Under the pieces are notes generated by a model. That model did not search any database, was not told the DNA's origin, and worked only from the letters and a program-made list of their open reading frames with translations. The translations under genes were made by a program, and so were the position numbers. From Hoeflea sp. YIM 152468 (GTDB lineage Bacteria > Pseudomonadota > Alphaproteobacteria > Rhizobiales > Rhizobiaceae), in NCBI RefSeq assembly GCF_029210485.1, contig NZ_JARGET010000003.1:124001-188000 (forward strand): 64,000 nucleotides of DNA, given 5' to 3'. Each line of letters starts with the position of its first letter. Position 1 is the stretch's first letter. Of this stretch, positions 17,587 to 25,531 are shown one piece after another.

Positions 17587-18480
17587 ATGAACTGGGATGA
17601 TATCAGGGTCTTTCTTGCTGTCGCGCGCTCGGGCCAGATTCTCGGGGCGGCCCGACGGCTGGGGATAAACCATGCCACAGCGGCGCGGCGGATAACCTCG
17701 CTTGAAACGGCGCTCGGTGCGCAGCTGGTGGTCAGGCGCACCAATGGCTGCGGCCTGACCGGCGAAGGCGAGACATTTCTGGTGCATGCCGAACGCATGG
17801 AAGCGGAGATGCTGGCCGCACAGTCCAATCTCGGCCGCCCCGACAGCGCCATATCCGGCACGGTGCGGATCGGGGCTCCGGACGGGTTCGGCGTGTCTTT
17901 TCTGGCGCCCAGGCTTGGGGTTCTGATTGCACGCCATCCGGATTTGCGGCTGCAGCTGGTCCCGGTGCCGCGCAGCTTTTCGCTGCCGCAGCGCGAAGCC
18001 GATATCGCCATTACGGTCGAACGCCCGGTTGAGGGGCGGCTGGTGGCGCGCAAGCTGGTAGACTATTCGCTGTCGCTTTACGCGTCGCGCGCCTATCTCG
18101 CCGAACACGGGACCCCGCAAGACGCCGACGATCTCAAGGCCCACCGTCTGATCAGCTATGTCGAGGATCTGATCTTTTCACCATCGCTGCATTTCACCCA
18201 CGAGATCTTGCGCAACTGGACGGCCCAGTTTGAAATCTCCAGCGCCACAGGACAAACCGAGGCGGTGCGCTCTGGCGCGGGCATTGCGGTGCTGCATGAT
18301 TATATCGCCGGGCTTGACCCGGACATGATCCGGGTGCTGCCGGAACACCGCATCGGGCGGTCCTACTTCATGGTTTACCATGAATCGGCGCGCGATCTGG
18401 CGCGGGTGCGGACCGTGGCCGACCACATCTCAAAGATAGCACAGGACCACAAGGCGTCGTTTTACCCGGGCCGGTCTTGA
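17587..18480 (+). CDS. LysR-family transcriptional regulator
   Basis: This is a 297-residue protein beginning MNWDDIRVFLAVARSGQILG. The N-terminal winged HTH includes AARRLGINHATAARRITSLE, a variant recognition helix with HATAARR where most LysR proteins have QSAVSR. The effector domain follows (VRIGAPDGFGVSFLAPRL). Such 'MNWDDLR' LysR proteins are a distinct proteobacterial subgroup. It follows the aldehyde dehydrogenase on the same strand after 155 bp and may control it, but no binding evidence exists. Confidence 0.9.
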   Translation: MNWDDIRVFLAVARSGQILGAARRLGINHATAARRITSLETALGAQLVVRRTNGCGLTGEGETFLVHAERMEAEMLAAQSNLGRPDSAISGTVRIGAPDGFGVSFLAPRLGVLIARHPDLRLQLVPVPRSFSLPQREADIAITVERPVEGRLVARKLVDYSLSLYASRAYLAEHGTPQDADDLKAHRLISYVEDLIFSPSLHFTHEILRNWTAQFEISSATGQTEAVRSGAGIAVLHDYIAGLDPDMIRVLPEHRIGRSYFMVYHESARDLARVRTVADHISKIAQDHKASFYPGRS

Positions 18481-18609
18481 GGTTCTGCCGCGAGCAGACA
18501 AGACGGTACCGGACAAGGCGGCACCGGACGGGCGGCACCGGACGGGCGGCACCGGACGGGCGCTTGATCTGGCACTCGGCAAAGCCGTGTTGGCGGATGC
18601 GATCACCCG
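18481..18609. other. intergenic stretch holding the 14-bp repeat
   Basis: No gene is supported here. It contains the short tandem array described separately and the region where the leftward sRNA transcript ends. Confidence 0.5.
18502..18562. repeat. 14-bp tandem repeat, three perfect and two partial copies
   Basis: GGCGGCACCGGACG is repeated exactly at 18517-18530, 18531-18544 and 18545-18558. A diverged copy lies at 18502-18515 (11 of 14 matches) and a 4-bp remnant at 18559-18562. It lies just after the LysR stop. The copies are directly abutting with no spacers. Confidence 0.9.
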
Positions 18610-18757
18610 AAAAACAAAACGCCTGCCGGCATGATACCGACAGGCGCTTGTGGTTTGTCGTGACATCCGAACCGGTGCTTGGGAGGAGGATCCCGGCCCT
18701 GATTGTCACGACTGTAGCCATGCCGAATTGGGAGGAGGAGGAGTTCGACATGGCGTT
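18610..18757 (-). ncRNA. alpha-r14 (NfeR1)-like trans-acting small RNA
   Basis: The minus strand encodes three consecutive hairpins. Hairpin 1 (18754-18717) pairs GCCATG-CGAA with TTCG-CATGGC and exposes CTCCTCCTCCTCCC in the loop. Hairpin 2 (18712-18657) has a perfect 9-bp base GTCGTGACA/TGTCACGAC and exposes CCTCCTCCC. Hairpin 3 (18646-18620) pairs CGCCTGTCGG with CCGGCAGGCG (one mismatch) and ends in UUUUGUUUUU, an intrinsic terminator. Two CCUCCUCCC loops that mimic an anti-Shine-Dalgarno, plus a terminator hairpin, are the published hallmark of alphaproteobacterial alpha-r14/NfeR1 RNAs; AbcR (alpha-r15) is the closest alternative. The predicted transcript is about 148 nt. It would base-pair with ribosome-binding sites of mRNAs, often ABC transporter mRNAs. 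Confidence 0.75.
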
Positions 18758-18763
18758 GATCGA

Positions 18764-18792
18764 GATATGGTGCAGTTTATGCTGCAATGCAA
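18764..18792 (-). promoter_or_regulatory. candidate sigma-70 promoter of the small RNA
   Basis: On the minus strand TTGCAT (18792-18787) and CATATC (18769-18764) are separated by 17 bp, placing initiation near 18757, just before hairpin 1. Confidence 0.5.
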
Positions 18793-18913
18793 TAGGAAAA
18801 ACACAAGATTCTTTATCTTTTGATAAACCTTCCTAAATCTTTGTAATTTTTCGTGTTTTCACGGAGCGAATGGCCTTCCAGCCCCACAGGCCTTCCGGCA
18901 ATGTGGCAGCGCA

Positions 18914-18944
18914 ACAAAAAACCGGGACGCTCAGTCCCGGTTTT
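18914..18944 (-). terminator. intrinsic terminator of the xylFHG operon
   Basis: On the minus strand AACCGGGAC and GTCCCGGTT form a perfect 9-bp stem around TGAGC, followed by TTTTGTTG. It starts about 12 bp after the xylG stop. Confidence 0.9.
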
Positions 18945-18953
18945 GATGGTTGA

Positions 18954-19745
18954 TCAGGCTGTTTGCAGGGCGCCAGGCCCGGGAATCGCGCCCGGCGGGC
19001 ATTTGCCCATGATGATCATGCCGAGAACCTCATCCTTGGTGACATCCGAGGTCTTGGCGTAGCCGACGACCTGGCCGTTCTTCATCACCGTGACACGGTC
19101 GGCCAGATCGAAGATATCGTGGATGTCATGGCTGATCAGGAAAATCCCGATGCCTTCCTTTTTCAACTGCTTGATCAGATCGCCAACCTGTTCGGTCTCC
19201 TGTGGCCCAAGTGCCGCGGTCGGCTCATCCATGATCAGGATGCGGGCGTTGAACAGGATTGCCCGGGCAATCGCCACCGACTGGCGCTGACCACCGGAGA
19301 GCTTGCTGACCGGCTCCTTGAAGCGCTGAAAATTGGGATTGAGACGCCCCATCACCTTGCGGGCCTCCGCTTCCATGGCGATATCATCAAGCGTGCCCCA
19401 AGCGGTTTGCAATTCACGGCCGAGATAGAGATTGGCAGCAGCATCAACGTTGTCGGCAACAGCCAGTGTCTGGTAGATCGTCTCGATGCCGTAACGCTTC
19501 GCGTCGCGGGGGTTTTCGATCTGTGCTTCTTCGCCATTGATGAAGATCTTGCCCGAATCGCGCTTGTAGGCACCCGAGAGAATCTTGATCAGCGTCGATT
19601 TTCCGGCACCGTTGTGGCCCACCAGAGCGACCACTTCGCCGGGAAACAGATCGGTTGAGGCGTGGTCCACGGCCTTGATGCCGCCAAAGGCAATCGAGAT
19701 GTCGCGAAGTTCGACCAGGGGTGTGTTGTGTGTGGTGTCTGACAT
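18954..19745 (-). CDS. xylG: sugar ABC transporter ATP-binding protein (XylG/FrcA-type, single domain)
   Basis: This 263-residue ATPase has Walker A GHNGAGKS at 43-50, LSGGQ at 149-153 and Walker B ILIMDEP at ~169-175. It contains one nucleotide-binding domain, whereas enterobacterial XylG has two (about 510 residues), so it must act as a homodimer, as in rhizobial FrcA-type systems. It is last in the leftward xylF-xylH-xylG order, 11 bp after xylH and after a GGGAG Shine-Dalgarno. The C-terminus ([15 protein letters not shown]) is Pro/Gly-rich. Confidence 0.87.
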
Positions 19746-19756
19746 GGCAGTTCTCC

Positions 19757-21085
19757 CTACTTGGCCCGCGCCCGATACATGGTGTCAATCCAGACGGCGA
19801 AGACAAGCACTCCGCCCACCACCATCTGCTGGATAGCCGCATCGAAACCGATCAGCACCATTCCGGTTTGAAGTGACTGCATCACGATGGCGCCGAGTAC
19901 GGCTCCATAAATGGTGCCTACTCCCCCGGCGAATGAGGTGCCGCCGATCACTGCGGCCGCAATCACATACAGCTCATCGAGCGTGCCCAGATTGTTGGTG
20001 GCGGAGTTGAGCCGGGCGCTGGCGATCACTGCCGACAGCCCGCACAGAAACCCCATCAGGGCAAAGATCTTGACGGTGACCCAGCGGGTGTTGATGCCGG
20101 CCAGCTCTGCTGCTTCCGGGTTGCCGCCAATGGCAAAGACATAGCGGCCAAAGCGTGTCCGCGAGGTCAGGAACGTCATGGCGATTCCGACCGCGATCAG
20201 AATGAGAACCGGAATGGCAAAGCCGTGAGAAATAAAGATCTCCTTGACCGGCGTCTCAAGGTTGTTGGCGGCAGCATACTGCCTGACAATTCCGATGGGC
20301 CAGGGATAGCTGTTGACCAGCATGACGAAGCCCACTGTCACGCCGCAGCCGACCAGACCGAGAAAGATTTCGGCCCACATCGGCCGAAGCGGAAAGTCGT
20401 AACGCTGGCGCTGACGACGGCCGACCAGCATCAGCGCAACGATGCCGATGCAAATGAGAATGCCGACCACCCAGCTGCCAGTGGAACCGATCGAACCGTA
20501 AGGCCCGCCACCGAGCAGTGAAAACGTGCTGTCGACCGGAGAAATTGTTTCGCCGCGGGCCAGCAGGAAGGCCGCGCCGCGCCAGACCAGCAAGCCGCCC
20601 AGCGTCACGATAAAGGCTGGAATTCCCAGATAGGCAACCAGATAGCCATGAAAACCACCGATCAGGGCGCCAATCAACAATCCGCTCACGACCGCTATGA
20701 TCCAAATCAGCGGATGACCGAGCCCCAGATACTCCGGCAAGATCCAGACCTGGATAATCGCCATCATCATGGCGCAGAAACCCAGAATTGAACCCACCGA
20801 CAAATCGATGTGGCGGGTGACGATCACGAGAACCATGCCGGTTGCCATCACCCCGATGGACGCCGTCTGCACGGACAGGTTCCAGATGTTTCGTGCGGTC
20901 AGGAAGGATCCACGGCCAAGAACAAGCTCACCATAGAGATGGAATCCAACCCAGATGGTCAGCAAGGCGGCGATCATGCCGAGAAGGCGCACATCGACTT
21001 CAGTGGCTCGCATGAACCTGATAAATAGCCCCTCGCGGTCAACGCGACCGGCGCCAGTGGTTGTCTTTGTCGTTGATTGGTTCAC
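19757..21085 (-). CDS. xylH: sugar ABC transporter permease (XylH-like)
   Basis: I prefer the GTG start at 21085 ([20 protein letters not shown], 442 residues) because GGGGGAG sits 6 bp upstream; ATGs at 21109 and 21169 lack such a site. About ten membrane helices are visible. Signature parts include [37 protein letters not shown], as in ribose/xylose permeases, and [24 protein letters not shown] near the end. It forms the channel for the XylF-bound sugar. It follows xylF with a stem-loop in the 155-bp gap. Confidence 0.88.
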
Positions 21086-21189
21086 CAGGACTCCCCCATC
21101 CTCACGCATATTATTCTGCCTCTCCCGACACCGGCACTCCCCCGGCGGCCGCCAGCACCTCTTGCCCAAGCTCCCGGGCGAAGAGAAAC

Positions 21190-21240: not shown

Positions 21241-22269
21241 TCAGCAACCGTTTACGCCATCCATGGCGCCTTCGCAGACCTTGTCCTTGGCGATATGTCC
21301 GGCTTCGATGACAACATTGATGTTGTCCTTGGTGATCGGAGTTGGCGCAAGGAAGATCGCGTTCATCTCAACGCCGTTGGCGCCGCCGGACCACTTAACG
21401 GCACCCGGGATATCGGACATGGCCTTGCCATCCGCCAGCATGCCGGCGATGTTGCCAGCGGCCTTGCCAAGAGCACGGGAGTCTTTCCAGACCGACACGG
21501 TCTGGGTGCCGCGGGCAACGCGGTTGAGAGCGGCATGATCGCCATCCTGGCCACCGACCGGAATGTTGAGGCCCTGGGCCGAGAGCGCTGCGATGACGCC
21601 GCCAGCCATGCCGTCGTTTTCCGACAGAACCGCATCAACCTTGTTGTCAGCCGCGGTCAGGATCTGCTCCATGTTCTTCTGGGCATTGTCCGGCTTCCAG
21701 CCATCCGTGAAAGCTTCGCCAACAATCTTGATCTTGCCGGCATCGACGTCCTCGCCGATGACTTCCATCATGCCTTCGAGCAGAAACAGCGCGTTCGGGT
21801 CACCCTTGTCGCCCTTGATGATGGCATAGTTGCCTTCAGGCTGCTGAGCCTTGACGGTTTCGGCGATGATGCGGCCGACGCCCTTGTTGTCGAAGGTCAG
21901 GTAGAAAGCGCGATCATCCTCGATGAGGCGGTCGTAGCCGAGCACCGGAATGCCTTCGGCATCAGCCTTGTCGACCGCTGCGCCGACCGCGCCCGAGTCA
22001 ACAGACAGGATCACCAGAGCGTTGGCGCCCTGGGCGATCAGGCTTTCGACATCGGTCAGCTGCTTGGCAGCGGAAGCCTGTGCGTCAGCCGAGATGTAGG
22101 TGTCGCCATTGGCTTCGATGGCCGCTTTCATGGCGTTTTCGTCGGTTTTCCAGCGCTCTTCCTGAAAGTTGGACCAAGACACGCCGATCACCATGTCCTT
22201 GGCGAAAGTCGCAGTCGACATGGTTAGCGCAATGGCCGTGCCGGCCATCAGAGTAAGAATGGATTTCAT
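21241..22269 (-). CDS. xylF: D-xylose-type ABC transporter substrate-binding protein
   Basis: This 342-residue periplasmic protein has a Sec signal peptide (MKSILTLMAGTAIALTMSTATFA, cleaved before KDM). It matches XylF in several places: ERWKTDENAMK, LVILSVDSGAVG, VLGYDRLIEDDRAFYLTFDN, GNYAIIKGDKGDPNA, DGWKPDNAQK, SAQGLNIPVGGQDGD and GTQTVSVWKD. XylF binds D-xylose, although relatives in this group bind other pentoses or hexoses. The ATG follows TTGGGAGGACACT. A 21-bp perfect dyad lies about 90 bp upstream and a ROK repressor is divergently encoded. Confidence 0.9.
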   Translation of the reverse strand: MKSILTLMAGTAIALTMSTATFAKDMVIGVSWSNFQEERWKTDENAMKAAIEANGDTYISADAQASAAKQLTDVESLIAQGANALVILSVDSGAVGAAVDKADAEGIPVLGYDRLIEDDRAFYLTFDNKGVGRIIAETVKAQQPEGNYAIIKGDKGDPNALFLLEGMMEVIGEDVDAGKIKIVGEAFTDGWKPDNAQKNMEQILTAADNKVDAVLSENDGMAGGVIAALSAQGLNIPVGGQDGDHAALNRVARGTQTVSVWKDSRALGKAAGNIAGMLADGKAMSDIPGAVKWSGGANGVEMNAIFLAPTPITKDNINVVIEAGHIAKDKVCEGAMDGVNGC

Positions 22270-22356
22270 AGTGTCCTCCCAAGACTAGACCTGCCGGACT
22301 GGTCTCTCCTGCCCGGTCAATGCTCAACTGTGCGAGCGGCCAGCAAAGGCAAGCTT

Positions 22357-22862: not shown

Positions 22863-24095
22863 ATGCTGACCAGATCCAGTACCGAACTTGTACGCCAGCA
22901 GAATCGGGCGCTCGTGCTGGAAGCGCTGCGCCAGCAAAGCGGCCAGTCGCATACCGACCTGGCGCTGGAGACAGGCCTTGCGTCGGCAACCGTTACCGCG
23001 ATCACCCGCGATCTGGAAAACGAGCGTGTCATCGAGCGGTCGGAGGCTCCGCCTGCAGGCGGCCGCGGGCGGCCACGGGTTCTTTTCAAACAACGCCGCA
23101 CGGCCGCCTATGCAGCCTTTGTCCGGATATCCTCCGATGCGTTCCAGTATTCGATGGTGGATTATTCGGGCACGCTGATCGACCGGGTCGAGGAAAAACG
23201 CGAAAACACCGGTCAGAAGGTGGAAGCGTTCGCCAATGACATTCGTGCTGCCCTCGTCCGGTTGGTGGAGCGGACCCGGATTTCACGCGAGGATCTGAAA
23301 GCGATCTCGATTTCCTCGAAGGGGCTGGTGGCGGACGACAACACAACGCTGCTGTGGTCTCCGGTGTTGGGCAGTCAGCAAATCAATCTGCGCACGACGC
23401 TTGCACCCGATTGGAAGGCCAATGTCACGCTCAGCCATGAAAGCCGGCTTGTCGCCAGCGCGTTGCACACCGCGTTAGCCCGTCAGGAAGGCAAACCCAT
23501 ACCGCGTCTGGCTGCCCTGTCGCTCGGCCACTCCATCGGGCTTGGCGTTGTCCATACCGGAGCTGATGGCGCAACTTGGGCCCGTGCGCCGGTCTTCGGA
23601 CATATGATCCATACGCATGGCGGCGCGCTGTGCCGCTGTGGATCACACGGCTGTATCGAAGCTTATGCGGGGTTCTACGCAATCCTGCGCACCGCGTTCG
23701 AAGTGCCTCCCACGACCATTCCCGCCAGCTTCGTCCCGTTTCGGGAGGTTGAGAAAATTGCGATTTTGGCCCGGCGGGGCGACCGGATGGCCGAGTTTGC
23801 CTTCCGGCAGGCCGGAACGGCGCTCGGCAACGGGCTAGCGCGCTTGATCAGCCTGCACGGCAAGATGCCGGTGGTTTTCACCGGACCGGGCATCCGCTTT
23901 TTCGATCTGATGCGACCGGGCATTGACCAGGGTCTGTCCGCTTCCCTCGGCATCCGGATCGAAGGCCCCCCAGACATCTCGCTTTCGCTCGACGAGGAAC
24001 GCCTCGTTTATGAAGGCCACCTCAATCATACCATGGCGGCTATCGACCGCGATGTCATAGCGGCCAAGATCAATGGACAGGGAGGATCACCATGA
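22863..24095 (+). CDS. ROK-family transcriptional repressor (XylR-like)
   Basis: I start at 22863 (MLTRSSTELVRQQNRALVLE, 410 residues) because GGTGGAG precedes it and homology begins there; an upstream ATG at 22776 is less likely. Residues ~10-60 form a MarR-like winged HTH (SHTDLALETGLASATVTAIT). The ROK domain follows, with the zinc site GHMIHTHGGALCRCGSHGC (residues ~246-264). The position of the kinase catalytic Asp (usually NDANAAALGE) reads HESRLVASA, so it is a regulator and not a sugar kinase. It diverges from xylFHG and its stop overlaps the next start (ATGA), so it heads an operon with the two secreted-protein genes below. Confidence 0.88.
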   Translation: MLTRSSTELVRQQNRALVLEALRQQSGQSHTDLALETGLASATVTAITRDLENERVIERSEAPPAGGRGRPRVLFKQRRTAAYAAFVRISSDAFQYSMVDYSGTLIDRVEEKRENTGQKVEAFANDIRAALVRLVERTRISREDLKAISISSKGLVADDNTTLLWSPVLGSQQINLRTTLAPDWKANVTLSHESRLVASALHTALARQEGKPIPRLAALSLGHSIGLGVVHTGADGATWARAPVFGHMIHTHGGALCRCGSHGCIEAYAGFYAILRTAFEVPPTTIPASFVPFREVEKIAILARRGDRMAEFAFRQAGTALGNGLARLISLHGKMPVVFTGPGIRFFDLMRPGIDQGLSASLGIRIEGPPDISLSLDEERLVYEGHLNHTMAAIDRDVIAAKINGQGGSP

Positions 24096-25531
24096 TCAGT
24101 TCAGCACCGGGAGGACGATGGAGACGGCTTTTTGCCACACTGCTTGGACTGCAGTTCGCGTTGGCCGCCACCGCGAGCGCTGACGAACCGTGGGCCGAAC
24201 GCACAGCGGCGCTCGGTGCAATCAGCGTCATGCCAAGCGGGGTTTTGCCGAAAGATGAATTGGAGCGCTTGATCGACATCGGCGAAGCCCTGTTTCGAGC
24301 CAATTTCACCACCCTGGACGGTGTCGGGCGGCCGCAGGCAACTCAGGCCATTGACCCGACGCGGCGCAAACACCCGCGCGCGCAGATGTTTTTCCGAACC
24401 GCCGGCCCGGATGCCGGTTCCTGCGCCGCCTGTCACAACCAGCCCGCAATCGGCGGAGCCGGTGACTTTGTCGCCAATGTGTTTACTTCCGAGGGCTTTG
24501 AAAGCGCCGATTTCGATTCCCTTGATCCACAGTTTTCCAGTGAACGCGGGACCAATCATCTCTTTGGCGCCGGTCTCATCGAGCTGCTGGCCCGTGAGAT
24601 GAGCCACGACCTGCACACCATCCGCAGCAAGGCTCTTGCGCGCGCGCGCGCCGAAGGCGCGGCGGTGCGGCTTGCCCTGCAGACGAAAGGCGTTGCCTTC
24701 GGGCATATTACCGCCGAGCCGGACGGTTCAGTCAATCTCGACGAGCTAGATGGCCTCGACACAGACCTCGTCATCCGCCCGTTCAGCCAGAAAGGCGTGA
24801 TGACCTCGCTGAGACAATTCACCGTCAACGCGCTCAACCATCACCACGGCATGCAGTCCGATGAGCGTTACGGCGCGCGCTGGACCGGTTCTGACGATTT
24901 TGACGGCGACGGCACTTTCGCCGAAATCTCCACCGGCGACGTCTCCGCGCTGGTAGCCTGGCAGGCGACACTGCGCGCTCCGGTGCGGGTGGTTCCCGAC
25001 ATTGAAGGATGGGCCGAGGCCGCAGAACGGGGCGAGGCAGCCTTTACCGATCTTGGCTGTGCGAGTTGTCACCGCCCTGCCCTGCCGCTTGACTCTCTGT
25101 CCTTTGCCGATCCGGGTCCGCTGGATCTGGCGGGCACCCTGAACGACCGGCAGGTCAGCGACACGGCAATTTACGACATCGCCTTGCTGGATTGGGCAGC
25201 AGATCTGCCCCGCGATGCCGCGGGCCGGGTGCTGGTGCCGTTGTATGGTGACCTCAAGCGATATGTGATGACCGACAGTCAGATCGATGCACTTGGCAAT
25301 GAGCTTCTGTCGCAGCGGTTTGTTGACCGCAATATTTTCCAGACGGCAGAACTGTGGGGCGTCGGGTCGACACAGCCCTATGGTCACAGGAATGATTTCA
25401 GCAGTCTGCATGACATCATCCTCGCCCATGGCGGCGCCGGGCGCAGCGCTCGGGACGCCTATGCCGCCGCGTCCGATTCGGAAAAATCGGCGCTGATTGC
25501 CTTTCTCAAGACCCTGGTGATTTTGCCATGA
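24092..25531 (+). CDS. di-heme oxidoreductase (DHOR/DUF1111 family), periplasmic c-type cytochrome
   Basis: This 479-residue protein has an N-terminal signal sequence (RRLFATLLGLQFALAATASA, cleaved near residue 30). Two CxxCH haem-attachment sites are present: CAACH at 111-115 and CASCH at 323-327. It also has LFGAGLIELL and VMTSLRQFTVNALNHHHGMQ, typical of the DHOR family, and a DFDGDGTF loop (~269-276) resembling a Ca2+ site. These proteins are distant relatives of MauG/CcpA di-haem peroxidases, and their physiological substrates are mostly unknown. The start overlaps the ROK stop and the end overlaps the CRTAC1 start (ATGA in both), so the three genes form one translational unit. Confidence 0.88.
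   Translation: MISSAPGGRWRRLFATLLGLQFALAATASADEPWAERTAALGAISVMPSGVLPKDELERLIDIGEALFRANFTTLDGVGRPQATQAIDPTRRKHPRAQMFFRTAGPDAGSCAACHNQPAIGGAGDFVANVFTSEGFESADFDSLDPQFSSERGTNHLFGAGLIELLAREMSHDLHTIRSKALARARAEGAAVRLALQTKGVAFGHITAEPDGSVNLDELDGLDTDLVIRPFSQKGVMTSLRQFTVNALNHHHGMQSDERYGARWTGSDDFDGDGTFAEISTGDVSALVAWQATLRAPVRVVPDIEGWAEAAERGEAAFTDLGCASCHRPALPLDSLSFADPGPLDLAGTLNDRQVSDTAIYDIALLDWAADLPRDAAGRVLVPLYGDLKRYVMTDSQIDALGNELLSQRFVDRNIFQTAELWGVGSTQPYGHRNDFSSLHDIILAHGGAGRSARDAYAAASDSEKSALIAFLKTLVILP

Follow-up and report, generated by a model that had tools for sequence, protein, structure and literature searches.

A conserved small RNA locus of Hoeflea with two anti-Shine-Dalgarno loops and a PhaR-like palindrome over its -35 box

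Small RNAs (sRNAs) built of modular hairpins with the loop motif CCUCCUCCC have been described as a family in the Rhizobiales (accessible text of PMC3927594), which was later reported under the name of cuckoo RNAs with the two-hairpin RSs0680a of Rhodobacter included. The members of this family, e.g., SmelA075 and SmelA099 from S. meliloti and RSs0680a/CcsR from Rhodobacter, carry CCUCCUCCC in their hairpin loops, vary in the number of modules (two in RSs0680a) and occur in several copies per genome according to the same text (PMC3927594). A DUF1127 neighbour is frequent but not obligatory among them, as stated in the available portion of PMC10253847. The ar14/NfeR1 sRNAs (RF02344) are defined in the accessible part of PMC10746234 by three hairpins, each of them bearing the anti-Shine-Dalgarno motif. 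AbcR1 and AbcR2 (ar15) exert anti-Shine-Dalgarno control over the mRNAs of ABC transporters. The MmgR sRNA (ar8) is described in the available text of PMC7143759 as a Hfq-dependent RNA of 77 nt with three stem-loops, an anti-Shine-Dalgarno motif in the first loop and partial SuhB homology, and with a link to phasins, not importers. Its promoter contains the site CAATTGTGCACCGCAGCATTA, bound by the PHB-binding regulator PhaR (AniA) of S. meliloti, which recognises WNWD2NYGCRNYGCRNH2WNW (accessible text of PMC12542648). MmgR is the PhaR-linked sRNA in print within these sources, and a literature search covering titles and the openings of abstracts brought up none in which PhaR was connected with CCUCCUCCC sRNAs.

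We analysed a stretch of DNA from Hoeflea sp. YIM 152468 (64,000 nucleotides, hereafter the window), in which folding of the minus strand from 18759 to 18610 revealed three hairpins, two with CCUCCUCCC loops and then a terminator. The features of the locus are as follows.

18610 to 18759, minus strand: putative sRNA transcript of about 150 nt, from the fold, an alignment of 17 sequences with compensatory changes and a match to the ar14 model at 18614-18759
18717 to 18754, minus strand: hairpin 1, with CTCCTCCTCCTCCC in its loop (18743-18730), from the fold, motif search and alignment
18657 to 18712, minus strand: hairpin 2, with the motif at 18689-18681, from the fold, motif search and alignment
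18617 to 18649, minus strand: hairpin 3, an intrinsic terminator with a T-tract at 18619-18610, from the fold, alignment and sequence reading

The first-pass annotation of this DNA had noted two minus-strand stems with the motif in their loops and a third stem ending in a T-run, and the fold bears out both statements. The only two copies of CCTCCTCCC in the window (18730-18738 and 18681-18689, both on the minus strand) lie in the open loops of the two long stems, and the third stem, whose loop does not contain CCUCCUCCC, leads into TTTTGTTTTT. The segment 18792-18610 folds with a minimum free energy of -75.1 kcal/mol as compared with -47.3 ± 3.9 kcal/mol for shuffled sequences (z = -7.1), none of the 200 shuffles being equally stable. 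The motif count by itself is weak evidence because two CCTCCTCCC were also found anywhere within 64 kb in 7 of 100 shuffled sequences. The part from 18792 to 18760 constitutes the promoter outside the RNA proper (about 18759-18610), and the RNA would start near 18760-18757, judging from the promoter and the onset of conservation. Shortly past the terminator, imperfect tandem copies of a unit of about 14 bases (GCCCGTCCGGTGCC) were seen by eye at window positions 18500-18560.

The sRNA locus goes beyond chance because it is conserved in Hoeflea with paired changes in its stems. Similar DNA across the locus was found in 16 of the 17 other Hoeflea genomes, the one missing it being 75% complete, and in none of 43 genomes outside the genus; with the window's own genome counted, 17 of 18 Hoeflea genomes have the sRNA, and its stems show compensatory changes. 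Over the 17 sequences, the proposed structure comprises 37 pairs, which are 98.3% formed and of which 13 are changed on both sides, values that none of 500 shuffles reached. Covariation in homologous loci, which the first-pass annotation had set as one of the tests of its proposal, was thereby found. The sequence CCGGGATCCTCCTCCCAAGCACCGG around the loop of hairpin 2 is identical in all 17 orthologues, and a 23-nt piece of this hairpin is contained in 12 named contigs, all of them from Hoeflea. The extended CTCCTCCTCCTCCC run of loop 1, singled out earlier as unusual, is real, but its length is not constant between Hoeflea species and is shortest at locus L023.

Initially, the RNA had been assigned to the alpha-r14/NfeR1 family, and the proposed check with Rfam models went against this assignment. 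The scan of the whole 64-kb window at gathering thresholds gave no match, the ar14 model (RF02344) reached 37.4 bits on the sRNA (E = 1.5e-5), which is under the cut-off of 58.8 bits, and the ar15 model matched nothing in 18500-18900 at E-values of up to 10. Elsewhere in the genome lies an ar14 locus of its own, with three motifs (L003, G000:C25:54123-54249, minus strand, 107.3 bits). Of the 18 Hoeflea genomes, 17 have ar14 matches of 92-107 bits (20 in total), and the orthologues of the window sRNA, also in 17 of 18, score 27-46 bits with this model; four more matches of 27-32 bits belong to neither class, G005 and G008 having one each and contig C36 of the present genome two. We rejected the sRNA as an orthologue of NfeR1/ar14 because its score of 37.4 bits is below 58.8 bits, it carries two motifs and not three, the third loop being without one, and the 107.3-bit ar14 locus is a separate one. 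Weak matches to ctRNA_pGA1, snoRNA, miRNA and Ysr35 models were dismissed as terminator or AT-rich chance similarities. Two loci on contig C36 may be mentioned here, the further candidate L005 (G000:C36:47982-48088, minus strand), which is GC-rich with two CCUCCUCCC hairpins and lies directly past an apparent tRNA 3' end, and L006 (G000:C36:382291-382396, minus strand), which matches the ar14 model below its threshold and has only one motif, shortened to CCTCCCC, in the last hairpin.

The sRNA has two hairpins with the loop motif, as the CCUCCUCCC family requires at the least, and combines variable stems with conserved loops (compensatory stem changes; loop 2 unchanged across all 17 sequences). 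It is a member of the broad CCUCCUCCC (cuckoo) kind, and the NfeR1 label names the right kind but is incorrect in its detail: what stands is a conserved, structured anti-Shine-Dalgarno CCUCCUCCC RNA, not NfeR1/ar14 itself. Unlike the described cuckoo RNAs, it stands alone without a DUF1127 partner, the upstream gene encoding an ABC ATPase and the downstream gene a LysR regulator by Pfam, and it has stems of its own and a PhaR-like site over its own -35 box. When a covariance model of the sRNA was run on a sample of 199 genomes of the family, the three from Hoeflea scored 169.7-178.7 bits and no other genome exceeded 52.1 bits; the stem sequences of this branch were seen in Hoeflea only (≤52 bits elsewhere in this sample). 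The same model matched at least 92 other genomes at E = 0.001 or better, and these counts are lower bounds owing to the strict filters of the scan. Among the 27 best-scoring loci outside Hoeflea, 26 contain either two CCUCCUCCC motifs (11 loci) or three, and one (L104) has none. The anti-Shine-Dalgarno control by AbcR1 and AbcR2 may also be likened to the Hoeflea sRNA, which has no ar15 match, as given above. Elsewhere in the genome, two tandem, near-alike sRNA-like genes with LsrB/VtlR boxes upstream (L007 and L008, G000:C22:152972 and 153198, plus strand) are what we take to be AbcR-like genes, named from their tandem arrangement and their loop.

The sRNA is flanked by an ABC importer operon and a LysR gene, in agreement with the first-pass annotation. 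These genes were assigned by Pfam.

21241 to 22269, minus strand: periplasmic sugar-binding protein (Peripla_BP_4), whose gene opens the ABC operon located upstream of the sRNA
19757 to 21169, minus strand: ABC permease (BPD_transp_2)
18954 to 19745, minus strand: ABC ATPase (ABC_tran), whose gene ends the operon
17587 to 18480, plus strand: LysR-type regulator, convergent and downstream of the sRNA

The ABC ATPase adjoins the sRNA in 16 of the 17 Hoeflea loci. It is 91-95% identical to the ATPase in the window in 5 other loci and about 69% identical in 10, and the operon beside the sRNA therefore may not be the same one in all Hoeflea loci. The LysR gene lies beside the sRNA in 15 of the 17 loci, and we found no evidence for an action of this regulator on the sRNA.

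Upstream of the RNA, the promoter and three further elements were identified in the intergenic region.

18764 to 18792, minus strand: sigma-70-like promoter, TTGCAT (18792-18787), 17 nt and CATATC (18769-18764), read from the sequence and conserved in orthologues
18777 to 18797, minus strand: PhaR-like palindrome over the -35 box, core TGCATTGCA at 18791-18783, found with the phasin-promoter matrix
18899 to 18919, minus strand: distal PhaR-like site, some 122 bp farther upstream than the proximal one, matrix rank 2 in the window with 12.5 bits
18812 to 18827, minus strand: inverted repeat TTTATC-N4-GATAAA at about -67, the pattern TTTAYC-N4-GRTAAA being present in 15 of 17 orthologous promoters

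The promoter is present exactly as the first-pass annotation described it. The TTGCA of its -35 box forms the left half of the palindrome, and TTGCAATGCAGCAT is found in 14 of 17 orthologues; the two cores that differ (TGCATTGCA in the window and TGCATCGCA in L021) do so at degenerate positions of the motif only. The proximal PhaR-like site occurs in all 17 orthologues at a fixed distance from the RNA, each promoter carrying the YGCRNYGCR palindrome expected of the PhaR regulon.

A gene for PhaR is found in 17 of the 18 Hoeflea genomes, the genome without it being 75% complete. Phasin genes gave 59 matches in the 18 genomes, and all 32 upstream regions examined, two of which fall in a single intergenic region between divergent genes, contain at least two YGCRNYGCR sites, as compared with a mean of 4.8 of 32 randomised regions with at least one site. 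We built a Hoeflea PhaR matrix from 64 of 65 phasin-promoter sites, leaving out an extra match at L066. The proximal sRNA site scores best with this matrix among the 63,980 positions of the window (15.46 bits; a mean of 0.15 positions in randomised 64 kb are as good), and the second rank falls on the distal site in the same intergenic region. The distal site reaches 9.3 bits or more at -159/-160 in 12 of 17 orthologues and is weak or missing in the other 5. The cut-off of 9.3 bits was chosen once the sRNA sites were known, and the 2 window positions at or above it compare with a chance mean of 1.78; the weight is placed on rank, place and conservation because this count is not above chance. 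At 9.3-17.4 bits, the sites of the sRNA score below those of the phasin genes (median 24.9 bits), there is one mismatch at a W position in the arms published for S. meliloti PhaR, and the -35 box alone already constrains part of the PhaR-like site. The exact TTGCANTGCAGCA occurs at 8 sites in the genome and its reversed control at none. One of these sites separates a divergent pair of phasin genes, another precedes a carboxylase-like gene and a third is that of the sRNA, with five unplaced. At L044 (G000:C5:131156-131168), the PhaR-like TTGCACTGCAGCA was seen by eye directly upstream of a gene resembling pyruvate or another biotin-dependent carboxylase; S. meliloti PhaR is reported to repress Pyc.

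Transporter mRNAs, suggested as targets in the first-pass annotation, turned out to be plausible, with importer mRNAs predicted from complementarity and target enrichment. Loop 2 is able to pair with UUGGGAGGA. We found 24 distinct sites of TGGGAGGA-N4-10-ATG in the genome and none of the backwards pattern. Three sites with ORFs shorter than 100 aa were dropped, and 16 of the 21 ORFs of at least 100 aa encode periplasmic binding proteins of importers by Pfam (7 TRAP DctP, 4 SBP_bac_1, 2 Peripla_BP_4 and one each of Peripla_BP_6, TctC and NMT1). Among 75 control ORFs with other strong Shine-Dalgarno sequences, taken from a 400-kb sample by crude ORF calling (30 scanned singly, the others via the best 25 of 124 families), at least 7 are binding proteins (Fisher p = 4.8e-9 against 16 of 21). 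Even with 12 binding proteins among the 75 controls, p would be 4e-7. A first control with TAAGGAGA had only 5 sites and was too small. The sugar-binding protein of the adjoining ABC operon is encoded by one of the 16 genes.

22267 to 22281, minus strand: ribosome-binding site and start of the sugar-binding protein gene, TGGGAGGACACTATG, predicted as a pairing site of the sRNA by the TGGGAGGA search and duplex prediction

GGGAGG precedes this start in all 7 of the 12 named Hoeflea loci in which the start is visible, and TGGGAGG in 3 of these 7. When pairing was predicted against ribosome-binding sites in the window, as had been proposed, the duplex of this start with loop 2 (-20.8 kcal/mol) ranked second of 26 chosen starts with a median of -12.15 kcal/mol. 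The strongest pairing (-22.2 kcal/mol) was that of a di-haem oxidoreductase-like gene at 24092-25531 with the ribosome-binding site GGGAGGATCACC. Anti-Shine-Dalgarno complementarity is unspecific, and the AbcR-like and ar14 RNAs encoded in this genome could act on these targets as well.

Our preferred reading, to which we give a probability of roughly 60%, is a trans-acting CCUCCUCCC (cuckoo) sRNA, of a branch seen in Hoeflea only, that is repressed by PhaR, released by PHB and silences the mRNAs of importer binding proteins. It starts from the observed structure and its conservation, the likeness of the motif to phasin promoters and the complementarity to an enriched class of targets. PhaR (AniA) would bind over the -35 box and repress transcription of the sRNA. 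Upon accumulation of PHB, PhaR would be drawn to the granules and the sRNA would be made. Its loops could then pair with purine-rich Shine-Dalgarno sequences (TTGGGAGGA and alike) and block ribosome binding, the chief targets presumably being the periplasmic binding-protein mRNAs of ABC, TRAP and TTT importers, including that of the adjoining sugar ABC operon. Accumulation of the sRNA would block importer translation and lower uptake, amounting to a feedback from storage to uptake. Whereas this kind of sRNA is already known, the unexpected part would be its regulatory link to storage.

A more familiar explanation would be an ordinary NfeR1/ar14-like sRNA, activated by LsrB and under nitrogen control. 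The Hoeflea sRNA resembles NfeR1/ar14 in its loop motif, length, terminator and likely importer mRNA targets, the ar14 match is sub-threshold with an E-value of 1.5e-5, and control of S. meliloti NfeR1 by LsrB and NtrC is reported in the accessible text of PMC10746234. We nevertheless consider this explanation quite improbable in view of the ar14 locus that 17 of 18 Hoeflea genomes have at a separate place and the third hairpin without the motif. Neither the nfeR1-type LsrB box (TGCA-N6-GCAT) nor the NtrC box (TGC-N11-GCA) occurs in any of the 17 sRNA promoters, and the LsrB/VtlR box reported for AbcR genes (GCAT-N3-TG-N3-T) is absent in 16 of 17, with one match at L019, whereas the two AbcR-like tandem genes carry it and served as a positive control. 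The LsrB and NtrC boxes, however, do not separate the sRNA from ar14, because LsrB, VtlR and NtrC boxes are all absent at the Hoeflea ar14 locus L003 as well. Still less credible is that the sRNA is not independent and belongs either to the sugar ABC operon, as a piece of its 3' untranslated part, or to the convergent LysR gene. Even though it lies on the same strand just downstream of the operon, a terminator-like hairpin (about 18942-18915, after the ABC ATPase gene, by eye) stands between the two, and the sRNA has its own promoter. Moreover, the sRNA is present at L026 with neither the ABC gene nor the LysR gene within 1.5 kb, and its persistence without either neighbour indicates a gene in its own right.

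It is also conceivable, but in our estimate unlikely, that the anti-Shine-Dalgarno sRNA is real and the link to storage is wrong, the -35 palindrome being bound by a regulator other than PhaR, e.g., LsrB/VtlR or another factor, or being a mere -35 box. TGCA half sites are found in LsrB sites, too (TGCA-N6-GCAT in nfeR1, according to the available part of PMC10746234), and the other conserved palindrome, at about -67, points to a further regulator. Against this reading stand the lack of the published LsrB/VtlR box in nearly all promoters and the conserved stretch, which extends past the -35 hexamer as TTGCAATGCAGCAT and resembles the sites in phasin promoters.

The PhaR-controlled reading gains breadth from related loci. 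PhaR-like sites of at least 9.3 bits are located upstream of all 20 Hoeflea ar14-type loci (16-25 bits; 0.27 expected), and a DUF1127-like ORF, recognised by pattern, lies between the site and the RNA in 18 of these 20. The ar14 locus L003 is an example, residing behind a DUF1127-like small-protein ORF and the PhaR-like site GAATATTGCACTGCACAAATC. Among the 27 best-scoring CCUCCUCCC-type loci of other Rhizobiaceae genera from the covariance-model scan, in which related species are not independent, 12 have a PhaR-like site of at least 9.3 bits (0.26 expected) and 15 do not; the loci with a site represent 8 of 20 genera. In S. meliloti, nfeR1 is placed at 1667613-1667492 (excerpt of PMC7143759), and SMc02051, a small protein strongly raised without PhaR, has its PhaR site at 1667000-1666980 (excerpt of PMC12542648). 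Assuming common coordinates in these two sources, nfeR1 is about 490 bases away from the SMc02051 site. The pattern is not universal, because S. meliloti nfeR1 is reported to be under LsrB and NtrC control.

We tentatively propose, at somewhat short of even odds, that a switch from storage to uptake, made up of PhaR-controlled CCUCCUCCC sRNAs, is widespread in Rhizobiaceae, in which PhaR titrated by PHB granules would free both stand-alone and DUF1127-linked anti-Shine-Dalgarno sRNAs that silence importer binding proteins. PHB accumulation needs to be balanced against uptake, and a PhaR-repressed anti-Shine-Dalgarno sRNA is a candidate for the missing link. If true, the switch would explain why importers of S. 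meliloti fall without PhaR though their promoters seldom carry PhaR sites, and the stress-associated CCUCCUCCC sRNAs would gain a metabolic input signal. Hoeflea, with its stand-alone CCUCCUCCC sRNAs, appears suited to a clean test. In the Rhizobiaceae genome G232, five consecutive matches to CCUCCUCCC-type sRNA models were observed at C54:17711-18365 (G232:C54:17711-18365), possibly an sRNA array.
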